Below, piece by piece: positions 20,078-48,896 of a stretch of DNA of 64,000 nucleotides. Numbering within the stretch: the stretch's first letter is position 1; every line of letters starts with the position of its first letter. The notes below the pieces were generated by a model that was given only the letters and a program-made list of their open reading frames with translations, was not told the DNA's origin and ran no database searches. Both the position numbers and the translations under genes were made by a program. The DNA comes from Streptacidiphilus sp. PB12-B1b (GTDB taxonomy: Bacteria > Actinomycetota > Actinomycetes > Streptomycetales > Streptomycetaceae), in the NCBI RefSeq assembly GCF_014084125.1, contig NZ_CP048405.1, forward strand, positions 5,704,001 to 5,768,000, read 5' to 3'.

Positions 20078-20574
20078 GATTGCGCCCTTTCCTGGTGATT
20101 CAACACGCCTGCCGTTGCCACCTGCCGCCGACGGTCGCCCCGATTGGTCGGTGACAGCTCGGCGCCTGCGGCCATCTGCGGGCGCTCGAAGACGAGGAAA
20201 CACATTCAAGCAGCAGGATGTTTCATGGCCGCAAAGCGATGTGCCCCCGAGACTGCTTCAGCACAATCGGTACCGGACAGTGGTCACGCGGTCCTGGAGG
20301 CCCGGTACGGCCAAGGAACCGCTTCTCCATGTGTGGGGCCTTCCTCACCGCTCACAGTGGCGAATGAAGTGCGTTCGGGAAATTCGAGCGCTGAGCTTGA
20401 TACCGGTGAGTGAACAGATGAATCGGGGGCCGTAGCGCGCGTCGCACCGGAGTGAGCTGGACGCGCGGCCTCACTCTCGGTGCAGGGTTGACGGAGGGTC
20501 AGCGTTAGTTCTCGGCATACGGGTCAGCGGGCGAGCAGGGTCCGAGCAAGCGCATCCTCCTCGCCCACTGACGA
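20078..20574. other. Intergenic region without recognised gene
   Basis: About 500 bp upstream of the repeat-rich surface protein gene and downstream of the GH39-type operon. The leftward promoter of the surface protein gene should be here, but no clear -35/-10 pair was found. Open frames are short and lack coding character. Confidence 0.4.
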
Positions 20575-36267: not shown

Positions 36268-37977
36268 CTACCGGATGCGCGGTCCTTGCTGGTCCGGACG
36301 CTGGCGCGGAGGCTGCTGGACCTGGGGCTGCTGCAGCTGCTCGGGTCGGCGGTCGGGGCGCGAGACCGTCTGCTGCGGCTGGTCGGCGCGGCGGACCGGG
36401 GTCGAGTTCCGGGCAGTTCGGCCGTTGCGGGCCTGGACCTGTTCACGGTGAGCAGCGCGCTCGGCGGCGCGGCCCGCGCGGCGCCGCTCAGCAAGGCTCG
36501 GCTCCGCCCCCGCCGCGGAGGCTTCGGTGGTTTCCGGGGCCGCGGTCGCTGTGGTGGTCGGAATGCGGCTTTCGGGGGTGAGGTGGCCGCGTTCGGTCAT
36601 TACGGTGGTCAGCGGGTCCACGACGGTGACGAAGCGCAGGGCGGCGTTGTCGGTGACCGGGGTGTGCTGGAGCCAGGTGGCGCCGGTGCGGGTGGCGATG
36701 TCGTTGATGATGGTCTGCTGCTGCTGGGGTGTGAGGGCCTGGAAGACGTCCGCCGCGAGCTGGCCTCGGGCGGTGTCGTCCGGGGTCGGCGTTGTGCTGG
36801 TGGGCGCGGTGCTGGTGCTGGTGAGTTGGCGGGCGGCGAGGGCGGAGGCAGCGGCTGCCCAGTAGGCGGTGTGTCCGGCGCGGCCTTGTTCGACGTAGGG
36901 ACCGGCGGGCTGGGCGGGGTCGTTGTCGGTGACCTGATACTGGTCGCGGTAGGCGGCGATGGTGGCCAGATGCCGGGTCCAGGTGGCGCGGACGGCCGGG
37001 TCGGCGGGGGCGTCGCCCAGGCTCTGGCTCCAGTCAGGGCGGGTGGTGGTGACGCGCTCGGCCAGGGCGGTCATCCGGTCGGCGATCAGCTGGGCACGGT
37101 CGTCCAGGTAGGTGCGGTGGGCCGGGTCCATAGCGGCATTGTGCTGCGGCGCGGCCACCCAGCCGGGCAGGTCCTGGCGCACAGCAGCGCTGGCCTCCTG
37201 GAGGGCGCGAGCGTGCTGGAGCACCCGGTCCAGCTGGCCCGTGCCGCTGGAGCTGACGAAGGCGTCGGTGAGGTCGCTGCCGCTGATCTCGGCGGCCTTG
37301 AGGGTCCAGGCCAGGGTGCGCCACTGCTCGGCCTGGCGGTCGGTCGTCCGCTGATCGGTGCCGGGGGTGGGGGCGGTGGCGAGGTAGCGGTTGAGGCGCC
37401 AGGCAAGGAGCAGGCTGACGCTGTCCGCGCCGTCGATCGGGCGGGCTTCGACGGCCTGGCGCAGCAGTTGGTCGGGCCGGTGGCCGACGGTCTCGGCACG
37501 GCGCAGTGCCGCCGTGAGGGCGGGCCAGGCGGCTTCGGCGCGGACTTGTTCGGCGAGGTGGTCGGCCAGGGCGTGGTGGGCGGCGGCCTGGTGGCGCAGG
37601 GCGGCCGGGACGCGGTGCTCGGATGCAGGGATGCCGCGCTGGACGGCGAGTTCGCTGGTCTGGGTGGCGAGGTCGTGCAGGAGGTTGTCGCTGCGGGTGG
37701 TGCGGGCGTGGGCAGTGTCGAGCAGCAGGTCGGTGTCGTGGCCGGCCTGGTGGGCAGCGACCAGGACGGCGGCGAGCTGCGGCCAGTCGCGGTGCCCGGT
37801 GACGGTCGCTGCGGTGATTCCGGCCCGTTCGGAGGCGGCAGCGGCGTACCGGTCCAGGTCAGCGGCGGAGACATAGGGGTGACCTGCGGGCGTGGTGCCG
37901 GAGGCTGCGACGGTACGCAGCGCGAACGGCGTGGTCGCCGCGGTTTCGGGGGTGAAGGTGGTGGTGTTCAGGCCCAG
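36268..37977 (-). pseudogene. 3' part of a MobF-type relaxase gene
   Basis: A single leftward reading frame of about 570 codons, with high-quality actinobacterial coding sequence, runs from the inverted-repeat boundary at 37977 to a TAG at 36268. It has no start codon in its first ~250 codons. It resembles the C-terminal region of conjugative MobF/TraA relaxases of actinobacterial plasmids: ARPIDGADSVSLLLAWRLNR, AHRTYLDDRAQLIADRMTAL, RPDWSQSLGDAPADPAVR and TWTRHLATIAAYRDQYQV, with a Gln/Arg-rich tail. The relaxase and helicase domains are missing, cut off where the SDR/XRE element begins. A GTG at 37224 could give a 318-residue product but probably has no function. Confidence 0.65.
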
Positions 37978-38007
37978 GAGGTCGTACCTTGAGAGGAGCT
38001 ACACCCG
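37978..38007 (+). repeat. Left terminal inverted repeat of the SDR/XRE unit
   Basis: Thirty bases identical to the reverse complement of 39953-39982. The relaxase reading frame enters it and stops at 37999-38001. Confidence 0.85.
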
Positions 38008-38035
38008 GAGTCGGACCTGGGAAGCGTGCCTGGTT

Positions 38036-38893
38036 TCAGACGCCGGTTCCGGTGAGAGTGGCGGTTGCCTGCCAGAGCCTCTTGGCGACGGCCGGGTCCA
38101 GGCCGGCCCGGCTGGGCTTGCGGATCAGTGGGTAGCCCGTGAAGCTGAACAACCCGTCCGGACCGACGTAGGCGTTGGCGGGGACGTCTTGCGTGGCTGC
38201 GTACATGAGCGGCAGAGCTCCGTGTTCGACGTCCTGGACCAGGAACGGGAGCCGGTTGACGAATCCCAGCGGCGAGTGCGTGACCAGTCCGGTCCGCGCG
38301 ACGCCAGGGTGAGCGATGACCGAGCGGACATGGCTGCCCGAGGCGGTCAAGCGGCGCTGCAATTCCAGCGAGAACAGCACACCGGCGAGCTTGGACGACT
38401 CGTAGACGGCCAGCCCGTTGTACTTGCGGGTGCGCCAGTCGAGGTCGTCGAGGTCCAGCTTGCCGAATCGGTGCAGTTGGCTGGAGACCGTCACCACGCG
38501 GTCGGTCAGCCGGGGCAGCAGTAGGTTGGTGAGCACGAACGGCCCGAAATAGTTCGTCGCGGTCTGTACGTCCAGGCCCTGCGCGGTGCGCGCCGCCGGG
38601 ATGTCCATCACTCCTGCGTTGTTGATCAGAACATCGATGTCGCCGGTGTACGACGTCGCAAACGCACGTACCGAGTCCAGGTCGGCGACATCGAGTTGCC
38701 GGACATCGAAATCTCCACGCATACCGGCCACTGCCTGGCGCGCCTTGTCGACGTTGCGCACGGCCAGCACCACGTGGGCGCCGACCCGTGCGAGTTCGCG
38801 AGCGGTCACCAGCCCGATCCCCCCGCCAGCACCGGTGATCACCACCGTCACGCCGGTCATGCTCGGCAGCCGGTCCGCGGTCCATTTGGCCAT
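38036..38893 (-). CDS. Short-chain dehydrogenase/reductase
   Basis: A 285-residue cytoplasmic NAD(P)-dependent oxidoreductase. It has the Rossmann motif TVVITGAGGGIGLVTARELA, DVLINNAGVM, and the catalytic Ser-Tyr-Lys set (VSSQLHRFG; YESSKLAG, where the Tyr-x-x-x-Lys is intact). The length and the C-terminal region resemble retinol-dehydrogenase/WW-domain-oxidoreductase-like SDRs. The substrate is unknown. The ATG at 38893 has GGAGGA 8 nt upstream. It is divergent from the XRE regulator, which probably controls it. Both lie inside the inverted-repeat unit. Confidence 0.85.
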   Translation of the reverse strand: MAKWTADRLPSMTGVTVVITGAGGGIGLVTARELARVGAHVVLAVRNVDKARQAVAGMRGDFDVRQLDVADLDSVRAFATSYTGDIDVLINNAGVMDIPAARTAQGLDVQTATNYFGPFVLTNLLLPRLTDRVVTVSSQLHRFGKLDLDDLDWRTRKYNGLAVYESSKLAGVLFSLELQRRLTASGSHVRSVIAHPGVARTGLVTHSPLGFVNRLPFLVQDVEHGALPLMYAATQDVPANAYVGPDGLFSFTGYPLIRKPSRAGLDPAVAKRLWQATATLTGTGV

Positions 38894-39064
38894 GGTGAAA
38901 TCCTCCAGAGGCTTTTTTCCCTGATTCCTGACGTCGTCCAGTGAAGAGGACCCGTGCCGACGGATGAAGGACTTGCTCAACCACTGAATGGCAGGGCGTG
39001 GCTCCCCGTGTTGACCTGCCGGACAATGAGCTGGAGGTATACGACATTCGACGTGGGGAGCCCG

Positions 39065-39919
39065 ATGGTGGACACGGCACTGGATGGCGATGGTCTGGCT
39101 GATTTCCTGCGCGGACGGCGGGAGTCCTTGCAACCCGAGGACGTCGGGTTGCGCCGCGGCGCACGACGGCGCACGACCGGGCTGCGCCGGGAGGAGGTCG
39201 CCGAGCTGTGCGACATGTCGGCCGACTATTTGGCCCGGCTGGAACGCGGTAGTGGTTCCCAGCCGTCGCAGCAGATGGCAGCGGCCATCGCCCGGGGCCT
39301 GCGCCTGACCCCCGACGAACGTGACCACCTGTTCCTGCTGTGCGGGCACCGCCTCCAGACACGGCGACTACGCGAAGCGCACATCAGTCCCGGGCTGCTG
39401 CGGGTCATGGACCGGCTTCAGGACACACCGGCGCAGATCGTGGGCACGGTCGGTGAAACGCTGCAGCAAACGCCGCCCGCCGTGGCGCTGCTCGGCGACG
39501 AGACGCGTCACACCGGCCCGGCGCGCAGCGCCCTCTACCGGTGGTTCACCGACCCCACCGCCCGCCACCGGTACCTGCCCGACGACCACCACCTGCACAG
39601 CCGCGTCTACGTCGCCATCCTGCGCGCCAGTGCCACCGCGCAGGGGCCCGGATCGCCGGCCGCCTCGCTCGTGGCCGACCTGCAACACAACGAGGAATTC
39701 GCCGAGCTGTGGAACCGCCACGAAGTGGGACTGCGGTGGAGCAACGCCAAACGCTTCGTCCACCCCGAGGTCGGACGCATCGACCTGTACTGCCAGACAC
39801 TGCTCGACCCCGACCAGGGGCAGTCCCTACTCATCTTCACCGCCACACCTGGTACGGAGAGCCACGACAAGCTTGCCCTGCTGACCGTGCTCGGCGCCGA
39901 CACATTCGCAGGCTCCTGA
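39065..39919 (+). CDS. XRE-family regulator with MmyB-like ligand domain
   Basis: A 284-residue DNA-binding protein. The helix-turn-helix is GLRREEVAELCDMSADYLAR, then LERGSGSQPS. The C-terminal ~170 residues form the MmyB-like domain typical of actinobacterial XRE regulators next to SDR genes (HSRVYVAILRASATAQ, FAELWNRHEVGLRWSNAKRF). The ATG at 39065 (GGGGAG just upstream) is preferred to a start 37 codons earlier. It is divergent from the SDR gene across 171 bp, presumably its operator region. Confidence 0.85.
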   Translation: MVDTALDGDGLADFLRGRRESLQPEDVGLRRGARRRTTGLRREEVAELCDMSADYLARLERGSGSQPSQQMAAAIARGLRLTPDERDHLFLLCGHRLQTRRLREAHISPGLLRVMDRLQDTPAQIVGTVGETLQQTPPAVALLGDETRHTGPARSALYRWFTDPTARHRYLPDDHHLHSRVYVAILRASATAQGPGSPAASLVADLQHNEEFAELWNRHEVGLRWSNAKRFVHPEVGRIDLYCQTLLDPDQGQSLLIFTATPGTESHDKLALLTVLGADTFAGS

Positions 39920-39952
39920 CGCACGTGCGGCACTCTCGGAGCCGAGCGCCTT

Positions 39953-39982
39953 CGGGTGTAGCTCCTCTCAAGGTACGACCTC
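39953..39982 (-). repeat. Right terminal inverted repeat of the SDR/XRE unit
   Basis: Exact reverse complement of 37978-38007. It lies 33 bp after the XRE stop codon. Confidence 0.85.
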
Positions 39983-40187
39983 ACCGGCACCGAGCCGCGA
40001 GTTCACATGTGAGGTGTGATCCTTCCGGCGGTTCCGGTCGTCCCGCCGCTGATCACCGAGGACCGCTCGGCCGATCTTCGGCCTGGCCGGCACGCCTACC
40101 CCGCGGCGCTCCAACGAGGGGCCGCCGCATGGGCCACGGGCGATGCGCCAGACACCGACGTCCCAGCCCGGCCCGTCCCTCCAAAGG
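39983..40187. other. Unassigned sequence between the SDR/XRE unit and the intron 3' end
   Basis: About 200 bp. If the group II intron ends at 40188, this is what remains of its 3' exon (read leftwards). It has an open leftward frame without recognised similarity. Confidence 0.3.
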
Positions 40188-40235
40188 GTCGGGTAGCCCC
40201 GGGCACCTCCGTGGCTCCCACAGAACCGTGCGTAA
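40188..40235 (-). other. 3' end of a group II intron: domain V half and domain VI
   Basis: Read leftwards, CACGGTTC (the 3' strand of domain V) is followed by a domain VI-like stem and the intron-end-like sequence GGGGCTACCCGAC ending at 40188. The other half of domain V is at 42863-42895, on the far side of the IS-bounded unit. The two were contiguous before that insertion. Confidence 0.7.
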
Positions 40236-40407
40236 GAGCCCGCGCAGATAGGCGGGTGGGGCACTCGGGCAGTGAGGTGAGCACAGGTCTCCGTGATCAA
40301 GGAGTTGCGACGCTCTGTGATCACTGGGGAGACCCGTGCCCGTTCTTCCAGCATGGCTGACCGACCCATTGTGGGACCAATTCGCGGCGCTGCTGCCCGC
40401 CGTGGGG
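40236..40407 (+). pseudogene. Truncated IS5-family element: left end and first transposase codons
   Basis: Contains the terminal inverted repeat, the leader shared with 42762-42862, and an ATG at 40336 opening PVLPAWLTDPLWDQFAALLPA. The match ends right at the aldo/keto reductase stop codon. Confidence 0.75.
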
Positions 40408-41280
40408 TTAGCGGCCGATCTTGTCCAGCTCGGCGAGATCGTCGTCGGAGAGCTGGAGTTCCGCGCCTGCGACGTTCTCTCGCAGGTGTGCCACCGACGA
40501 GGTGCCGGGGATCAGCAGGATGTTCGGCGACCGCTGCAACAACCAGGTCAGGGCAACCGACATCGGCGCCGCGTCCAGCCGGGTGGCCACGGCCGTGAGC
40601 GCGGAGGATTGCAGCGGGCTGAAGCCGCCGAGGGGGAAGAAGGGCACGTAGGCGATGTCCTGTTCGGCGAGTTCGTCGATCAGCTCGTCGTCTTGGCGGT
40701 GGGCGAGGTTGTACATGTTCTGGACGCACACGATCGGCGCGATCGAGCGTGCCTCTGCGACCTGTGCCGTCGTCGCGTTGCTCACGCCGAGGTGTCGAAT
40801 CATTCCCTGCTGCTGGAGTTCGACGAGTGTTTCGAACGCCTCAGCGAGCGAACCGGGCACGGGGCCCTGGGCGTCGCCGAGCCGGAGGTTGACCACGTCC
40901 AGCGTGTCGAGGCCGAGGTTCTCCAGGTTCTCGGTGACGGCCCTGCGCAGCTCTTCGGGCTTGCGCGCCGGGGGCCAGCCGCCCTCCTGGTCCCGGGTCG
41001 CGCCGACCTTGGTCACGATGTGCAGCGCGTCGGGGTACGGGTGCAGGGCTTCGCGGATCAGCTGGTTGGTGATGTGCGGCCCGTAGGCGTCGGCGGTGTC
41101 GATGTGGGTGATGCCAAGGCCGACGGCCTCGCTCAGGACGGCGAGTGCGCCGTTGCGGTCGGCGGGCGGCCCCATGACCCAGGGGCCGGCGAGCTGCATG
41201 GCGCCGTAGCCGAACCGGGTGACGGTCAGGTCGCCCAGGTTCCAGGTGCCGCCGGGCAGCGAGGCGGAGGGGGTGCTCAT
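40408..41280 (-). CDS. Aldo/keto reductase
   Basis: A 290-residue NADPH-dependent oxidoreductase of the AKR TIM-barrel superfamily. It has the catalytic Asp and Tyr near the N-terminus (HIDTADAYGPHI), the Lys (HIVTKVGATRD), and a C-terminal cofactor-binding region (ILLIPGTSSVAHLRENVAGA). The start MSTPSASLPGG has GAAAGG upstream. It is divergent from an HxlR regulator, a common pairing for redox or aldehyde stress. It ends against the truncated IS at 40407 and moves with the IS-bounded unit. Confidence 0.88.
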   Translation of the reverse strand: MSTPSASLPGGTWNLGDLTVTRFGYGAMQLAGPWVMGPPADRNGALAVLSEAVGLGITHIDTADAYGPHITNQLIREALHPYPDALHIVTKVGATRDQEGGWPPARKPEELRRAVTENLENLGLDTLDVVNLRLGDAQGPVPGSLAEAFETLVELQQQGMIRHLGVSNATTAQVAEARSIAPIVCVQNMYNLAHRQDDELIDELAEQDIAYVPFFPLGGFSPLQSSALTAVATRLDAAPMSVALTWLLQRSPNILLIPGTSSVAHLRENVAGAELQLSDDDLAELDKIGR

Positions 41281-41357
41281 GGTGTGCCTTTCGTGTCGAG
41301 CCAGGGGATGGTGCCTGACGGCTCCTTGCACCACTATTGGTACGTAGCTTCTAATCG

Positions 41358-41373
41358 GGAAGTAGGCACTTCC
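41358..41373. promoter_or_regulatory. Palindrome in the AKR/HxlR divergent promoter
   Basis: GGAAGT-AGGC-ACTTCC is a perfect inverted repeat (arms 41358-41363 and 41368-41373) about 38 bp before the HxlR start. It is a candidate HxlR operator; promoter boxes are not clear. Confidence 0.45.
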
Positions 41374-41410
41374 GAGTTCGTAGGGCACCTGCAGGTGAGA
41401 GGAACGGTCC

Positions 41411-41854
41411 ATGGCGACGATGACGGCGGCCCAGCAAAGGGCACAGGCCAAGGTGGAGTACGACGCCTTCGTGGCGGCCTGTCCCAGCCGCAAGCTGCTC
41501 GACCGGATCTCCGACAAGTGGGTCACGCTGATCCTGGCCGGGCTCGGCAGCGACAGCGCGCATGAGCCCGGCGCCGACTGCGCCGGCGAGCCCCGGGTGA
41601 TGCGCTACTCGGAGTTGCAGCGCCTGCTGGCCGGCGTCAGCCAGAAGATGCTCACCCAGACGCTGCGCTCCCTGGAGCGCGACGGCCTGGTGTCCCGCTC
41701 CGTAGTGCCGACCGTGCCGGTCACGGTCTCCTACGAGCTGACGGATCTCGGCCTGTCGCTGTACGAGATGATGCGGGGCCTCAAGGCCTGGGCCGAGGTG
41801 CACATGGACGATGTGCTCGCCAACCGCCAGACTTACGAGACCCGCGTCGCCTGA
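41411..41854 (+). CDS. HxlR-family transcriptional regulator
   Basis: A 147-residue winged-helix regulator with the family signature CPSRKLLDRISDKWVTLILA, where the Cys could be a redox switch. The recognition helix region is RYSELQRLLAGVSQKMLTQT, then the wing RDGLVSRSVVPTVPVTVSYE. An unusual ~15-residue loop (GSDSAHEPGADCAGE) is inserted after the first helix. It is divergent from the aldo/keto reductase, which it probably represses. Confidence 0.88.
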   Translation: MATMTAAQQRAQAKVEYDAFVAACPSRKLLDRISDKWVTLILAGLGSDSAHEPGADCAGEPRVMRYSELQRLLAGVSQKMLTQTLRSLERDGLVSRSVVPTVPVTVSYELTDLGLSLYEMMRGLKAWAEVHMDDVLANRQTYETRVA

Positions 41855-41897
41855 ACCACAACAGGGTTGCTGACCAGCGGGAACAGTCTGCGCGTAA

Positions 41898-42862
41898 GAG
41901 GCCGGGCAGATGGGCGGGGCTCAAGGACGTCCCTTCGGGCGCTCGTCCCAGCGGTGGGTGGTGCAGGCCCGGCGGATCAGGCTACGAACGGTGATGATCG
42001 TGTCCGCGAGGTCGAAGAAGGCGTTGGCGACAGTCGCACGGCGCTCGTAGCAGCGGGCAATTCGGTGGAAGGCGTTCTGCCAGGCGTGCGTGCGCTCGAC
42101 GTGCCACCGCTCGCTGGCCTGGATCGGCGCCCTCTCGCCCTTGTGCGCGATGCGGCCGTGCAGGTTGCGGGCGGTCAGTTCGGTGCGGGTCCTGTCCGAG
42201 TCGTAGCCGGCATCCAGGTGCACGGTGATGTCGTCGGGCATCGGTCCCAGATCCTCCAGCAGGTCCAGAGTCGCGGCGAGCAGCGGGGAGTCGTGGCGGT
42301 TCGCTCCGGCGAGGACCCTGCCGAGCGGGATCCGTAACCATCTGTCATGCCCGAGCGTTTGAGCCCTTGCTTGCCGCGGTCGACCGCTGAGCGTCCAGCG
42401 ACCTCGCCGCCGCCGGGGGCCTTGGTGATCGAGCCGTCGACGGCGATCCGGTCAAGCTCCAGCCCGACGATCCGGTCGTAGGACTCCAGCGCAATCTGCT
42501 TGAGCCGCATGAAGACGCCGAGGGAGATCCACTCGTCGCGGCGGTTGCGGATGGTGGTCGCCGAGCAGGTGGTGTCGGCGATCGCCTGGTAGGAGCAGCC
42601 GAACCGCAGCAGTTGCAGCAGCTTGTCGAACACGATCCGGTCGCCGATGCGGGGACGATGGCAGCCCAGCGGGTGGGCCGGATCGACCGCGGGACGCTCG
42701 GGCAGCAGCGCCGCGAATTGGCCCCACAACGGGTCGGTCAGCCATGCTGGAAGAACGGGCACAGGTCTCCCCAGTGATCACAGAGCGTCGCAACTCAATA
42801 ATCACGGAGACCTGTGCTCGCCTCACTACCTGGGTGCCGCACCCGCCTATCTGCGCAGGCTC
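41898..42862 (-). mobile_element. IS5-family insertion sequence (965 bp)
   Basis: Terminal inverted repeats GAGGCCGGGCAGATGGGCGG (41898) and GAGCCTGCGCAGATAGGCGG (from 42862, other strand), with TAA flanking both ends (41895-41897, 42863-42865). It carries one frameshifted transposase gene. Its left-end sequence recurs truncated at 40236. Confidence 0.75.
41921..42762 (-). pseudogene. IS5-family transposase, frameshifted
   Basis: The first ~140 codons (PVLPAWLTDPLWGQFAALLP; CSATTIRNRRDEWISLGVFM; RIAVDGSITKAPGGGE with the first catalytic Asp) run to MTDGYG, near 42335. The rest is one frame over: MPDDITVHLDAGYDSDRTRT (second Asp), RWHVERTHAWQNAFHRIARC (catalytic Glu) and an end at 41921. Loss of one base at GGATCC explains the break. 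This IS copy is probably inactive unless frameshifting occurs. Confidence 0.8.
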
Positions 42863-43063
42863 TAAATCTTTCGATTTACACGGCTCTTGTCGTCCTGGTC
42901 ACCAGACGATGGGGACCCAGTTCACCCAGGCCCAGTGCTCGAAGAACCTCGGTCTCAGCTTGACGACCATCTCCCACTGGGCATGGGCCTTCCTGCGGCC
43001 CCGCAGGCGTTTGTACTTGTTGCGCGACCACCGCATCACGTAGCTATTCACATGGGGTTGCGA
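42863..43063 (-). pseudogene. Group II intron remnant: maturase C-terminus and 5' half of domain V
   Basis: Read leftwards, ~54 codons encode YVMRWSRNKYKRLRGRRKAH then RPRFFEHWAWV and a TGA at 42899. This is the conserved C-terminal tail of group II intron reverse transcriptase/maturases. After the stop comes GAGCCGTG-TAAATC-GAAA-GATTTA. Joined to 40188-40235 this makes a canonical 34-nt domain V with GAAA tetraloop, CG bulge and AGC triad. The maturase is missing its N-terminal part, so the intron was already 5'-truncated. Confidence 0.8.
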
Positions 43064-43143
43064 GCGGGCCCGCCGCGGCGCGAGGCCGCGTCAGCGGCAG
43101 GCTGGAGAGGGCACGTGGGGTGGCGATGCAGGGACTCGGCCGT

Positions 43144-44034
43144 TCAGCGGCTCCGGTCGACGCGGTCGACGAAGTCGCCGACCGCGGTGGCGAAGGCGGC
43201 GGGCGCCTCCTGCGCGACGAAATGCCCGACGTCCGGGATCGTGACCGCGGTGACGTCGCCGGCGACCTGGCGCATCGTCTGCTCGGTGAAGGGGGCGTTG
43301 ATGCCGTCGACGGCGAGCACGGGAACGGTCAGCGGCCGCGACTCGGCCAGTGCCCGCATCCGGTCGCCGCCGGTCAGGGAGGAACGGTAGAGCCCCTCGG
43401 TGCCGCGCCAGCCGCCCGGCCGCGCGTAGGTGCGGGCGAACTCGTCAAGGTCGGCCTCGGTGACCCCGCCCGGCACCACCGTCATCACCGAGACGGCCCA
43501 ATCGAGCATCACTCGCTCGCGGCCGGCCAGGAACAGCTCCGCAATTCCCGGGGCGGCCAGGAATCCCACGTGCCAGGAGCCGCCGTTCCTCACGTCGGCC
43601 AGCATCTCCCAGCCGTACCCCGGAAGGGTGGTCTCGACGCCGGTGAAGCTGAGGACGTCGCCGGGGTGCGTGGCCGCGAACGCGAAGACCGGCCCGCCGC
43701 TGATGTCCTGGCAGGTCACGTGCACGGGCCCGACGCCGAGGTGGGCGACCAGCCGGTGCAGGTCCTCCGCCAAGGTCGCCAAGTCGTGGTCGCCGTCGGC
43801 GATGCCGGAGTCGCCGAAGCCGCGCAGGTCGACGGCGAACACCCGGTGGGTGGCGGCGAGTAGCGGGATGACGTCGCGGAAGGCCCACCAGGACTCCGGC
43901 CACCCGTGCACCAGCAGGATCGGGGAGCCGGTGTCGCCCGCCGAGACGTAGTGCAACGTGGTGCCGTTGACCTCGGCGGTGTGGTGCGTGATGCCCGCCA
44001 CGGCGGGCGAGGCGGTCACGAAAGAGCTGGTCAT
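43144..44034 (-). CDS. Alpha/beta hydrolase, epoxide-hydrolase-like
   Basis: A 296-residue cytoplasmic hydrolase. It has the oxyanion-hole motif LVHGWPESWWAF, the strand DLRGFGDSG, and a nucleophile elbow HVTCQDISGGPVFAF with Asp as nucleophile, as in epoxide hydrolases and dehalogenases. The catalytic His is in IPDVGHFVAQEAP. The ATG at 44034 (GGGAG upstream) is preferred to one 22 codons earlier. It is divergent from a MarR regulator with a 15-bp inverted repeat between them. The substrate is unknown. Confidence 0.85.
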   Translation of the reverse strand: MTSSFVTASPAVAGITHHTAEVNGTTLHYVSAGDTGSPILLVHGWPESWWAFRDVIPLLAATHRVFAVDLRGFGDSGIADGDHDLATLAEDLHRLVAHLGVGPVHVTCQDISGGPVFAFAATHPGDVLSFTGVETTLPGYGWEMLADVRNGGSWHVGFLAAPGIAELFLAGRERVMLDWAVSVMTVVPGGVTEADLDEFARTYARPGGWRGTEGLYRSSLTGGDRMRALAESRPLTVPVLAVDGINAPFTEQTMRQVAGDVTAVTIPDVGHFVAQEAPAAFATAVGDFVDRVDRSR

Positions 44035-44052
44035 GCGATGACTCCCAAGATA

Positions 44053-44092
44053 GACAATCAGGTTGACTCCAGTGTTGGTCAACCTGGTTGTC
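44053..44092. promoter_or_regulatory. Inverted repeat in the hydrolase/MarR divergent promoter
   Basis: GACAATCAGGTTGAC (44053-44067) and GTCAACCTGGTTGTC (44078-44092) are complementary at 14 of 15 positions, with a 10-bp spacer. The arms contain AGTTGAC-like MarR half-sites. It lies 18 bp from the hydrolase start, so binding would repress both genes. Confidence 0.65.
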
Positions 44093-44115
44093 CAGGTCAA
44101 GGGAAGATCTAGACT

Positions 44116-44598
44116 GTGGTCATGTCCTCACGATCCGGCGCCGATCTCGCCCTGCTGCTCCTGGGCAGCTATCGCAATCTGGTGGACGAAGTGGTCCGGG
44201 AGCTGGCGACCCGGGGATACCCCGACGCCCGGCCGTCGCACGAGTACGCGATCCGGGCCATCCGAGCCGGCGCCGACAGCGCCTCGGACTTGGCCCGCAG
44301 ACTCGCCATCACCAAGCAGGCCGCGGCGAAGACGATCGCCGCGCTCGTCGAACGCGGTTACGTCACCACCGAGACCGACCCCGCCGACATCCGCCGCAAG
44401 AACATCCGGATCACCGATCACGGGATCGGGCTGATCACCGAGAGCACGGCGATCTTCGACGAGGTGCGGGCCCGCTGGGAAGTGCGTCTGGGCGCCGCCG
44501 AACTCGCCGAGCTGGAAACGCAGCTCGCCCAATTCGTCGGCGACTCGCCCATCAACCTCGACGCTCCGGGCTGGGCGGCGGGACAGGAACTGCGCTAG
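44116..44598 (+). CDS. MarR-family transcriptional regulator
   Basis: A 160-residue winged-helix regulator. It has the recognition region SDLARRLAITKQAAAKTIAA and the wing LVERGYVTTETDPADIRRKN, with flanking dimerisation helices. The GTG at 44116 is 9 nt from GGGAAG; an ATG two codons later is also possible. It is divergent from the epoxide-hydrolase-like gene and probably represses it and itself through the 44053-44092 repeat. Confidence 0.87.
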   Translation: MVMSSRSGADLALLLLGSYRNLVDEVVRELATRGYPDARPSHEYAIRAIRAGADSASDLARRLAITKQAAAKTIAALVERGYVTTETDPADIRRKNIRITDHGIGLITESTAIFDEVRARWEVRLGAAELAELETQLAQFVGDSPINLDAPGWAAGQELR

Positions 44599-44642
44599 GC
44601 GGTGTCGTCAAAGTGATCTTGGATACGGTGGATCATGGCAGA

Positions 44643-44920
44643 GTGATACGCCGTCATGAACTCACCGACGCCGCATGGGATCTGCGGAGCCCCTGCTGCC
44701 AAGGCCGACGAGGGGGCGTCCTCGGCTGGATGACCGGACGGTGCTGAACGGGATTGTGTGGAAGTTCCGGACCGGGGTGCCCTGGCGGGACGTGCCCGCG
44801 CGGTACGGCTCCTGGAGGACGCTGCACACGCGGTTCCGGCGCTGGGCCGGAGACGGAACCTTCGACCAGATGCTGCAACGCGATACGAGTGCCCCGGATC
44901 GGACGGGGCTTCACCCCGGG
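44643..44920 (+). pseudogene. N-terminal fragment of an IS5-type transposase
   Basis: [14 protein letters not shown] starts at the GTG at 44643. After a one-base loss near 44685 the frame continues [40 protein letters not shown] and [14 protein letters not shown]. This is the orfA-like N-terminus of IS427-group IS5 elements. The catalytic domain is absent, replaced by the IS3 fragment that follows. Confidence 0.75.
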
Positions 44921-45388
44921 TGGTAGACACGGGTTTGTGTGGTTATGCGGCGAGTGCCAGGGTAGCTGACCGCTGCTGCTCGTAGGCGACGGGGCTGACC
45001 TGGCCGTTGGTGGAGTGGCGTCTGCGGGTGTTGTAGCGGGTCAGCCAGGCGAAGACGGTGTTCCTGCAGGTCGTGGGGGTGCCGTAGTCGTGGGCGCCCT
45101 GGAGCGTCTCGCGTTTGAGGGAGGCGTGGAAGCTCTCGCAGGCGGCGTTGTCCGCGCTGGTGCCCACCGCGCCCATCGACCGGGTGACGCCCAGGTCGGA
45201 GCACAGCTCGGCGAAGGCCCGGGAGCCGTACTGCGCCCCGTGGTCGCTGTGGAACACCGCGCCGTCCAGACCGCCGCGGCCCCGGGCCGCCATCCGCAGC
45301 GCGTCGGCGACCAGGTCGGTGCGCATGTGGTCCGCGATCGACCAGCCCACGACCTTGCGGCTGAAGCAGTCCAGCACGGTGGCCATTC
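44921..45388 (-). pseudogene. C-terminal fragment of an IS3-family transposase (orfB)
   Basis: Read leftwards from 45388, ATVLDCFSRKVVGWSIADHM, HSDHGAQYGSRAFAELC and DNAACESFHASLKRETL give the D, D and E of the rve integrase core. It ends ATLALAA at 44943. The element's 3' terminus (TGGTAGACAC) is near 44921. The first half of orfB and all of orfA are missing. Its 5' cut joins the tnpC stub of the Tn554-like element. Confidence 0.78.
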
Positions 45389-45415
45389 TGTGGAATCTGT
45401 GACCTGTGGTTTCAT
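45389..45415 (-). pseudogene. Stub of tnpC of a Tn554-like element
   Basis: An ATG at 45415 overlaps the tnpB stop (ATGA) and opens MKPQVTDST before running into the IS3 fragment. The position matches that of tnpC in Tn554-like transposons. Confidence 0.45.
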
Positions 45416-47763
45416 CGTTGGGTGCCTTGTCGGACTTCGATGATGGGTAGCAGTCGGGAGGCGGTCGGTCGGTTCAGCTCGAGAGGGCTGGGGCCGGCGG
45501 GGGTAGGGGTCTCGGCGAGGCGGTCGAGGAGTGCGTCCAGAGCGGCCTGTCCGTCGTCGACGGCGGCGCGTTCGTCGTCGGTCAGCGGGATAGAGACGAG
45601 CATCCGCTGCAGGTTGGCCTTGGCTTCCAGGAGTTGGGCCTGGGTGGAGTCCTTGGGGGTGTAGAAGTCACAGCGTGCGCAGGCCATGCGGTGCTGGCAC
45701 TGCTCGAAGAAGCTGTAGGTGCAGTAGCCGTGGCCGAGGTCGTAGTGCTGCCAGGGCACCCCGCCCGCGGCGGCGCCGGAGGCGACGGCGTCGCGGTCGA
45801 CCAGGACCTCGATGGTCCGCAGGTTGCGGGAGAAGTACCCGGCTTCGGTGTAGGCCCTGGTCAGCGTGTTCGGGGTGATCTTCGCGTAGTGCTGGGTGCT
45901 GACCGGGCTGCGGTGGCCGAGCCATGCCTGCAGCTCGAAGAGGGTCATCGGCTCCTTGGCGTTGTAGAGCTGGCTGGCGATGGTGGATCGGGCCCGGTGG
46001 CTGGTGATGTTGCCGCGGACGTCGGCGGTGGGCACTCCGGCCTTCTCGCAGAGCGAGGGGATCAGGGTGCGGTTGATGTAGTTCTTCGCGACCGGGTGGG
46101 CTCGGATGGAGAAGAGCAGGTCGACGTGTTCGCTGGTCTTGGCATCGAGGCGCTTCGGCTGGGCGGGCCGCAGGGCCTGCCAGGCTTCGATGGCCTGGCC
46201 GACGATCGGGTCGACGGGCTTGGTGAAAGCGGTGTTGGTCTTGTTGACCGGGACGTCGAGCAGGCAGACGGCCTGGTCGGCCAGGACCTCGCGGGAGGCA
46301 CCGTCGATGGGCTGTCCCTCGTGCTGCCAGCGGACGCAGCCGACCCGCAACCGGGAGATCTCATCGCTCCTCAGACCGGAGAACAGCCAGGTCAGTGCGA
46401 GCGAGCGGATCAATTCGAGGGGGTAGTAGCTGCCGGCGGAGGTGCCCGGCAGGTCCGGGGCCTGGAGGTTGAGCCCGGCCCACAACAGCTTGGCCCAGAT
46501 CTCGTCGGCGATGACGCGGGGATCGGTGGCGATCAGCGCGGCGATGGTGCGGGGCACCGCCAGTGCCCGGGCGGTGTCGAACCGGCGGGGCATCCATTCC
46601 CATTCCTGCAGGTCACGCAGGAATGTGCGGGTGCCCATGAGGATGTGGGCCTTGGTGCGCGGGGCGATCGGATCGCCGAGGCGGTCGTGGAGGTGGTCAC
46701 TGCGCTGGACGTAGTCGCCGACGGCCATCCTGTCGACCGCGGCGACCCAGTCCGCGCAGGTCGCCCGGGTCCAGTGGGCCGGATCGACGGCCTCGGGATG
46801 CTCGGCGGCCAGCCAGCGGCCGGCCTTGGCCATGTTCGTGCGGATGTTGTTGCGGACGTTCGCGGTCAGGACGGAGGTGTCGTACCAACGCTGCAGATAG
46901 CCCGACCACGGCTCGGGGACCCCGGCCAGGGTCGGGGCGTGGTTGAAGCCGGGGCGGACGGGGGCATGGCAGTGCCCCAGGTCGGCCAGGATCTTCTGCA
47001 GGGCAAAGAACCCGGACGCATACCGGGTGCCGGTGGCCGGGTGCGCCTGCAGGCGGGCGAACACCTCGGTGGTCAGGTCCTCCAGGCGAGGGCTGCGGTT
47101 GATCAGCAGGGCCTGGGCCAGGACCCCGGGCAGCCGGTAGCGGCCGTCGTCACGATTGTGGCTGCGGTATCCCCAGCGGTCCGCGACCACGGCGACCTCG
47201 CCCATCGCCGCCTCGATGGCTTCGGGGCCGAAGAGGAGCTGGGCCAGGTGGAGCCGGTTGAAGTGGCCCAGGTGCTGGAAATCGGTGAAGCCGCCGAGGA
47301 GATAGCCCAGGGAGATCAGGAACGGGCGGGTCGCAGTGTCTGTCGGGAGTTCCTGTGCTGTGCGGAACGCGGTGCTGCCGGTGGAGCACAACCGTGCCCA
47401 GTCCCAGGGTGTCCAGCCCCACCACGAGCGGTTCATTGCACGGCAGTTGGCCAAGACGACGGCCGCAGCCTGTGCCCCGGCCCGGCGAAGATTGACCTCA
47501 TCGTCGTGGTGCAGGGCGTGAAGGGCCTGGTCGAGGGGGTCGACCAGGCGGGTCAGTGCTCTCCAGTGCACAGCGGTCCGTCGCGGGATGCCGCCGTGGG
47601 CCCGCTGACGACGCAGGGCCCGCAGGTCCAGCGCTGCCAGGGCGGCAGCCTCCTGGTCCAGCAGCCCCGGGCGCTGGTCGAAACGGTCCAGGGCGAACAA
47701 CTGCGGCCGGCCGTCTGCGGCGACCGGGCCGGCGGCAAGCGGGCCGATCTTCGGCAGGGTCAC
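45412..47763 (-). CDS. tnpB: Tn554 TnpB-like large tyrosine recombinase
   Basis: A 783-residue site-specific recombinase. The catalytic part holds the tyrosine-recombinase residues: Arg in LFSGLRSDEISRLRVGCV, His-x-x-Arg in ITSHRARSTIASQL, and His...Tyr in WLGHRSPVSTQHYAKI. A long N-terminal region precedes it. Near residue 700 is a Cys/His cluster, CTYSFFEQCQHRMACARCDF, probably metal-binding and typical of the TnpB type. The GTG at 47763 overlaps the tnpA stop (GTGA). TnpA and TnpB act together in Tn554-type transposition; the third gene, tnpC, is cut off downstream. Confidence 0.8.
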   Translation of the reverse strand: MTLPKIGPLAAGPVAADGRPQLFALDRFDQRPGLLDQEAAALAALDLRALRRQRAHGGIPRRTAVHWRALTRLVDPLDQALHALHHDDEVNLRRAGAQAAAVVLANCRAMNRSWWGWTPWDWARLCSTGSTAFRTAQELPTDTATRPFLISLGYLLGGFTDFQHLGHFNRLHLAQLLFGPEAIEAAMGEVAVVADRWGYRSHNRDDGRYRLPGVLAQALLINRSPRLEDLTTEVFARLQAHPATGTRYASGFFALQKILADLGHCHAPVRPGFNHAPTLAGVPEPWSGYLQRWYDTSVLTANVRNNIRTNMAKAGRWLAAEHPEAVDPAHWTRATCADWVAAVDRMAVGDYVQRSDHLHDRLGDPIAPRTKAHILMGTRTFLRDLQEWEWMPRRFDTARALAVPRTIAALIATDPRVIADEIWAKLLWAGLNLQAPDLPGTSAGSYYPLELIRSLALTWLFSGLRSDEISRLRVGCVRWQHEGQPIDGASREVLADQAVCLLDVPVNKTNTAFTKPVDPIVGQAIEAWQALRPAQPKRLDAKTSEHVDLLFSIRAHPVAKNYINRTLIPSLCEKAGVPTADVRGNITSHRARSTIASQLYNAKEPMTLFELQAWLGHRSPVSTQHYAKITPNTLTRAYTEAGYFSRNLRTIEVLVDRDAVASGAAAGGVPWQHYDLGHGYCTYSFFEQCQHRMACARCDFYTPKDSTQAQLLEAKANLQRMLVSIPLTDDERAAVDDGQAALDALLDRLAETPTPAGPSPLELNRPTASRLLPIIEVRQGTQR

Positions 47764-48818
47764 CTCGCGTTCCTCTCCGTGCCGGTGAGCATCTCGATTC
47801 GCCAGGCGTGCAGATGCGACATCGAGGCGTTCAGCCGAGCCGACAGTTCACGGCCGGACAGATGGATGTAGCGCAGGGTCGACTCGGGGCTGCGGTGTCC
47901 GGCGAAGGTCGCGATCGCGTGCAGTTCCCAGCCCATCCGGGCCAGGTCCGTCAGGCACAGATGCCGGGTGGTGTGGGTGGAAAAGCGCGGCACCTCGGCG
48001 TCCAGCGCGATCCGGCGCACGACCTTCGACCAGGTCCACAAGGTCAGCGGCTGTGCCGCATTGCGGCGCGACTCCGAGAGGAACAGCGGTCCCCGGGCCC
48101 GCGACAGCGTGGCACGGTGGCGCAGGTACTCGCCCAGCAACACCCCGGTGGACGCCGAATAGGGCACCATCCGCTCCTGGCGGGTCTTGGTGGTCTCCGC
48201 CCGCACCCGCAGCATGCGGTGGGCCGGATCGATGTCGTCCGTCCGCAGCGAGCACAGCTCCTCCCGCCGAAGCGCCGCATCGTAGGCCACCGCCAGCATC
48301 AGCCGGTTGCGGATCGGCTCGGCCCGGAAGACGTCCAGGACCTGCAGCCACTCGGCCTCGGCCGGGATCCACGGCAGCTTGACCATGCGCGGCACCAGCC
48401 CCCGCGCGACCCCGGTGCCGCCTGCCCGCCCCGGTGTGTAGCGGCCACGGCCCACCGGATTCGACTCGCGCACCCCTTCCTCGACCAGGAAGTCGAAGAA
48501 CAGCCTCACCGGCACCAGCCGCTGCTGCAAAGTGGCATTGGACAGACCCGCCCCCGAGTCCAGGGCCAGGACATTCGATCCGCCGCGACTTGGCCTGGTC
48601 CTCAACTCCCGTACAAAAGCAGCGATATGGCTCCGATTGACTCTCTCCGGATCGTTCCCGTCCCGCTCGCACGCCAGCAGGAACTCGCCCAGACCACGGG
48701 CGTACGCATCGATCGTCCGGGGCGCCCGGCCCAGGTCCGACCAGATCTGCAGCCACTCGGCCGCCCGCGCATGCCGGTCCAAGACCGGCCACTTCTCCGA
48801 CAACACCGTCACGAACAT
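47760..48818 (-). CDS. tnpA: Tn554 TnpA-like tyrosine recombinase
   Basis: A 352-residue integrase. The N-terminal SAM-like core-binding domain (TIDAYARGLGEFLLACERDG, NATLQQRLVPVRLFFDFLVE) is followed by the catalytic domain: Arg in AVAYDAALRREELCSLRTDD, Lys/His region FSTHTTRHLCLTDLARMG, and GHRSPESTLRYIHLSG with the nucleophile Tyr. It is coupled to tnpB. The start is uncertain: ATG at 48818 or TTG at 48824, neither with a good ribosome binding site. The element's outer end should be near 48840-48890, where ACGTAACTTATACGTAC stands next to the IS fragment. Confidence 0.82.
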   Translation of the reverse strand: MFVTVLSEKWPVLDRHARAAEWLQIWSDLGRAPRTIDAYARGLGEFLLACERDGNDPERVNRSHIAAFVRELRTRPSRGGSNVLALDSGAGLSNATLQQRLVPVRLFFDFLVEEGVRESNPVGRGRYTPGRAGGTGVARGLVPRMVKLPWIPAEAEWLQVLDVFRAEPIRNRLMLAVAYDAALRREELCSLRTDDIDPAHRMLRVRAETTKTRQERMVPYSASTGVLLGEYLRHRATLSRARGPLFLSESRRNAAQPLTLWTWSKVVRRIALDAEVPRFSTHTTRHLCLTDLARMGWELHAIATFAGHRSPESTLRYIHLSGRELSARLNASMSHLHAWRIEMLTGTERNAR

Positions 48819-48896
48819 GCTCAACGCGACAGCAGGCCCGCCGTGCCGCCCCAGACGGCAGATCCATCCGTCAGCGTGATTCCACGTAACTTATAC

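Follow-up and report, generated by a model that had tools for sequence, protein, structure and literature searches.

The genome of Streptacidiphilus sp. PB12-B1b, a single contig of 7.67 Mb, contains the 3' end of a group II intron lying in two pieces on either side of mobile DNA. This arrangement raises the questions of what split the intron, whether the intervening DNA arrived as one unit and whether the intron was already defective when it did. We addressed these questions in a 64,000-nt window (NZ_CP048405.1, positions 5,704,001 to 5,768,000), whose numbering is used throughout. A first-pass annotation had proposed that a unit bounded by insertion sequences (ISs) split domain V of a 5'-truncated intron, and this core claim stands in substance. 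We favor, with a probability of about 0.9, the reading that a composite transposon inserted as one unit into a TAA of domain V, duplicating 3 bp and splitting the hairpin.

Base by base, the window contains a TAA (40233-40235), a 2,627-bp unit (40236-42862) and a second TAA (42863-42865). Removal of the unit with one TAA joins the 24 nt of 42886-42863 to the 10 nt of 40232-40223 on the minus strand. The resulting 34-nt hairpin has the attributes of domain V: 14 of 14 pairs formed, a lower stem of 8 bp that includes one G.U, a 2-nt bulge, an upper stem of 6 bp, a GAAA tetraloop and the AGC triad. Both the rejoining and alignment with intact introns identify 40223-40235 (minus strand) as the 3' portion of domain V, including one TAA copy, and 42863-42886 (minus strand) as the 5' portion, including the second. 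A 35-nt domain VI, which includes the 3' end of the intron (40222-40188, minus strand), adjoins the rejoined domain V directly. The proposed split is therefore exact to the base, and it is this rejoining of domain V, not the pair of TAA copies, that proves an insertion event.

The unit begins with the left end fragment of an IS5-type element (40236-40399, plus strand), comprising the outer inverted repeat and the start of the transposase gene and recognized through a 165-nt inverted match (93%) to 42699-42863. Next come genes for an aldo/keto reductase (40408-41280, minus strand; PF00248, E = 3.1e-50; NF007695, 499.9 bits against a cut-off of 280) and, divergent from it, an HxlR-family regulator (41411-41854, plus strand; PF01638, E = 3e-22). 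A TAA (41895-41897) marks the inner end of the complete IS, at an inner junction that is the same in a plasmid of Streptomyces sp. NBC_01435. The 965-bp IS itself (41898-42862, minus strand) matches PF13340 and PF13586 on its two frames and has short terminal inverted repeats, GAGGCCGGGCAGATGGGCGGG and GAGCCTGCGCAGATAGGCGGG. Its transposase frame is broken in PB12-B1b by a one-base difference, and is open in two relatives, one from another species of the same genus (G001) and one from another genus (G178). The G001 protein is identified as an IS5-family transposase by NF033580 (169.6 bits, cut-off 110); because of the break, the first frame of PB12-B1b alone scores 73.9 bits, under that cut-off. 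Beyond the two ends of the unit, no further copy of this IS was detected in the genome at E 1e-20.

Classical composite transposons consist of two IS copies around cargo. The unit described here resembles them in having inverted IS ends around its cargo and in being found as a unit, and differs in that one IS is an end fragment and a reductase gene and a regulator gene make up the cargo. With the IS5 family (NF033580; DUF4096 plus DDE domain) it shares the transposase family, imperfect terminal inverted repeats and a target that is mostly a 3-bp TAA or TTA, the broken frame of its 965-bp IS copy being the point of difference. An actinobacterial IS5 member, ISLxx6, is described in an excerpt of its report as having a single ORF and a 3-nt target (PMC2516522).

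Among named records, the unit is best matched by actinomycete plasmids, those of Streptomyces ahead of the rest. The copy on the NBC_01435 plasmid is 91.2% identical over window positions 40339-42863, so that the left outer 103 nt are absent. Its inner junctions are the same (one reads GCGCG-TAA-GAGGCC), and its right outer flank is TTA where PB12-B1b has TAA; it thus represents the unit, minus its left outer end, at another target. The left outer end is also joined to the reductase gene in genome G077 and in the S. viridifaciens plasmid pKVP2, and the HxlR gene is also joined to the IS in genomes G077 and G060. Halves of the unit are present in pKVP2 and G060, and G077 lacks the right outer end; a second target with both outer ends was not found among these four copies. 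Complete or nearly complete copies are infrequent among the matching records: coverage of the unit query is 80% or more in 1 of 463 plasmid records, and the left inner junction is present over 80% or more of its length in 2 of 48. This junction is about 40 nt shorter in PB12-B1b than in the other copies. Because the same inner junctions occur at other targets, the unit had most likely been put together before it reached the intron. Separately, about 2.1 kb of other DNA replaces or interrupts part of the reductase gene in G077 (L100, 6883-8996). Two loci with inverted IS pairs were considered and set aside: L101 (G038) has no match to the cargo, and L102 (G143) has a reductase match of 230 nt at 73%. 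A further comparison stretch, L049, gave nothing of use.

The matching TAA copies carry less information than the first-pass annotation assigned to them. We inspected 27 of 30 related IS loci, leaving out the three split copies, and 22 of these reach the right IS end. Beyond this end, the adjoining triplet is TAA in 10, TTA in 8, CAA in 2, GGC in 1 and ATG in 1. With 18 of 22 related ends followed by TAA or TTA, about half of unrelated pairings would be expected to match by chance. The TAA copies, which the first-pass annotation took as a precise record of the event, are thus weak evidence by themselves. By eye, pKVP2 and G077 have TAG and CAA, rather than TAA or TTA, outside the left end. No domain V motif was evident by eye in the flanks of the 27 related loci, giving no sign that the IS targets this structure.

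The sequence of events that we favor would begin with an IS5-type composite, made up of the IS end fragment, the aldo/keto reductase gene, the HxlR regulator gene and the complete inverted IS, moving as one unit. Its target would have been the TAA in domain V, and insertion with a 3-bp duplication would have split the catalytic hairpin. Since both outer ends correspond to the transposase-proximal end of the same IS, a single transposase, intact at the time, could have cut both.

The most durable alternative is that the unit was assembled in place, either by two separate IS insertions or by one IS insertion followed by acquisition of the cargo through recombination or adjacent transposition, the TAA match then being partly luck. 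The prevalence of TAA and TTA beside related IS ends leaves the matching flanks with little weight against this possibility, the complete IS has a TAA on its inner side as well, and the search for a second insertion with both outer ends gave none, the other copies seen lacking one outer end. However, assembly in place would have to accommodate the recurrence of both the left and the right inner junctions on Streptomyces plasmids and in other genera, as well as the rejoining of the domain V halves without loss or gain. We consider it improbable, and return to insertion of a preassembled composite as the explanation of the split.

A more basic doubt is whether the rejoined hairpin is domain V at all. 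RNAfold assigns the joined 34-mer -16.2 kcal/mol (z = -6.05), a value equaled by 0 of 200 shuffles, and places the bulge one base over, as AC with a U.G pair, relative to the CG of domain V as proposed. The two unjoined flanks fold in an ordinary manner (z = -1.20 and -1.00) and reach at best 10 pairs, the same number with the AGC triad required. Among 20,000 random cut-and-join pairs drawn from the window, 14 of 14 pairs together with AGC never occurred; 14 of 14 pairs without AGC occurred in 3, and at least 13 pairs in 37. The unjoined window contains one 34-mer with 14 of 14 pairs, on the plus strand, and none on the minus strand. An Rfam search of the unjoined window returned no RF00029 match, as expected of a split hairpin.

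Comparison with natural introns supports the identification. The exact 33-mer of the rejoined domain V, with its GAAA loop, is absent from the genomes of 84,980 species, and the inner 26-mer with the loop left free occurs at 14 places in the same collection. These belong to Acidobacteria, Burkholderiales, Chlorobiaceae and others, with no actinomycete among the record titles. Natural introns sharing the domain V were scored with Rfam in place of the joined letters themselves, and RF00029 was found at all 14 places, at 46.4-57.9 bits. It was also found in 16 of 18 loci tried, out of 45, the two exceptions being the split copies L008 and L018. The 16 intact loci and 10 of the 14 free-loop loci provided 26 intact introns for alignment with the joined sequence (L063, L066, L067, L068 and a second match in L020 were left out). 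In the resulting 27 rows, standard pairs fill 97.6% of domain V pair cells; shuffles give 80.5% and slid controls no more than 46.3%. Changes on both sides are seen in 8 of the 14 pairs. Domain VI aligns with that of the 26 introns. The relative arrangement of maturase C-terminus, domain V and domain VI, which the first-pass reading required of intact homologs, exists in them and is the standard one of bacterial group II introns (RF00029, TIGR04416). Neither of the two outcomes that would have overturned the first-pass reading was observed.

That the resemblance to domain V arose by chance, or that a group II intron was never present, is consequently a reading we regard as already refuted and to which we assign next to no probability. 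It could draw on the missing RF00029 match in the window and on the few random joins and single window 34-mer that pair fully, but the former is equally expected of a split hairpin, and the AGC triad, the maturase C-terminus beside domain V and the alignable domain VI all speak against it.

The maturase C-terminus is encoded at 42899-43054 on the minus strand, its stop codon (42899-42901) lying 12 nt before domain V. It is 71% identical to residues 385-435 of a complete 435-aa maturase (TIGR04416, 398.5 bits) encoded in L048, a larger stretch of the best-matching uninterrupted locus, that of G046. These 51 residues, too short to produce a Pfam match, are the only part of the L048 maturase matched in the PB12-B1b genome. 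Homology to L048 ends by 43054, and the intron is 5'-truncated beyond this point. Compared with bacterial group II introns that encode an LtrA-type maturase, only the last ~0.24 kb survives, with domain V split. Domains I-IV and a 5' splice site, as needed for a functional intron, are missing at the locus; matches to the D1-D4 families were absent from the window, and also from L019, the counterpart of L048.

The other boundary of the intron is fixed by G178, which carries nearby an inverted copy of window positions 39947-40187 (241 bp, 98.8%) that contains no intron and in which an open frame runs on to a stop. This copy departs from the window exactly after 40187, the base before the intron 3' end, placing the boundary at 40187/40188. 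The window retains the 5' part of the frame (40016-40187, plus strand), an arrangement suggesting a small gene that the intron occupied in antisense orientation. A search for the second half of this gene in the PB12-B1b genome, run without a positive control, found none at E 0.001. Given the intron-free frame in G178 and the missing second half, the 5' truncation probably arose by deletion rather than by incomplete insertion. The description of the intron as already truncated when the unit arrived is borne out as to the truncation but not as to the order, since PB12-B1b, G001 and G178 all carry both lesions. In the same neighborhood, an inverted repeat of ~29 bp (about 37976-38005 and 39953-39982) brackets an SDR gene and a gene for an MmyB-like regulator; in G178 this repeat extends into the 241-bp inverted copy that holds the intron-free host gene.

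The intron remnant is very probably dead: domains I-IV and most of its maturase are missing, and searches of the genome found no further maturase of this kind at E 0.01 and, with 150 of 248 candidates scored, no RF00029 match at E 0.001. That it still works in trans, with transcripts assembling as in engineered split introns, is exceedingly improbable: an excerpt of one report states that Ll.LtrB tolerates many fragmentation sites (PMC3410883), but here domains I-IV are missing at the locus, and the genome offers neither a second such maturase nor, among the candidates scored, an RF00029 match.

We searched relatives for the joined 224 nt. Matches at E 1e-6 were obtained in 34 of 394 family genomes, with as a rule only two candidates scored per genome. 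Of these 34, PB12-B1b, G001 and G178 have the split form, in two pieces, and differ at 10 columns in ~3.4 kb aligned; the presence of the same split copy in the two relatives shows that it is not an assembly error. Among the other 31 genomes, 30 match across the junction and one (G126) in the maturase part only. All 37 matching records among 72,556 plasmid records also match across the junction, although in two Caballeronia records (40 nt, 95%) and two Acaryochloris records (36 nt, 97.2%) the match covers domain V alone. Over the full length, the best uninterrupted relative is G046 (L019/L048), 79% identical over positions 1-223; a shorter uninterrupted match, in G220, is 89% identical over 64 nt. 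A near-identical uninterrupted intron was found in none of the 14 genomes of the genus, the 394 of the family or the 72,556 plasmid records, and the confirmation that the first-pass annotation had hoped for, a relative lacking the 2.6-kb unit and retaining one TAA, did not materialize.

The three split copies lie within a more extensive shared region. Outside a 1.86-kb insertion in G001, the identity to that genome is 99.93-99.98% over window positions 1-45386; to G178 it is 99.7% over positions 37978-44900. Near-identity on this scale between different species and genera suggests that the region, split intron included, has recently moved by horizontal transfer. The G001 insertion, absent from PB12-B1b, corresponds to position 20227, and its long ORF appears transposase-like by eye. 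Conversely, a 3.5-kb segment of the window (45387-48892) with a 783-aa ORF of the tyrosine-recombinase family (PF00589) is absent from G001, where its flanks are adjacent; by eye, its ends show short inverted matches, GTGGAATC and GATTCCAC.

In the titles or abstract openings of the literature matches listed, neither this insertion nor the unit is described. A partial precedent is FRE652 of Sinorhizobium, according to an excerpt of its report a degraded group II intron that was kept and moved with its surroundings (PMC5894124). The remnant studied here is similar in having been kept and moved with its surroundings; FRE652 retains 5' domains, whereas this remnant retains the 3' end.

At this locus, the disruption of one mobile element's core by another is recorded cleanly and to the exact base. 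It represents an ordinary nesting of known kinds of mobile element and introduces no new principle of intron biology. The more useful part is a by-product: Streptomyces relatives carry a recurrent composite unit whose cargo is a reductase and a regulator, and whose conserved inner junctions allow it to be traced across genomes. We tentatively suggest, at somewhat less than even odds for the proposal as a whole, that a previously undescribed composite transposon of Streptomyces-like bacteria disseminates the paired HxlR and aldo/keto reductase genes among plasmids and chromosomes, and that the region may be a landing zone for modules of a regulator plus an enzyme on transferable DNA, among them an SDR with an MmyB-like regulator, the aldo/keto reductase with HxlR and an alpha/beta hydrolase with MarR.
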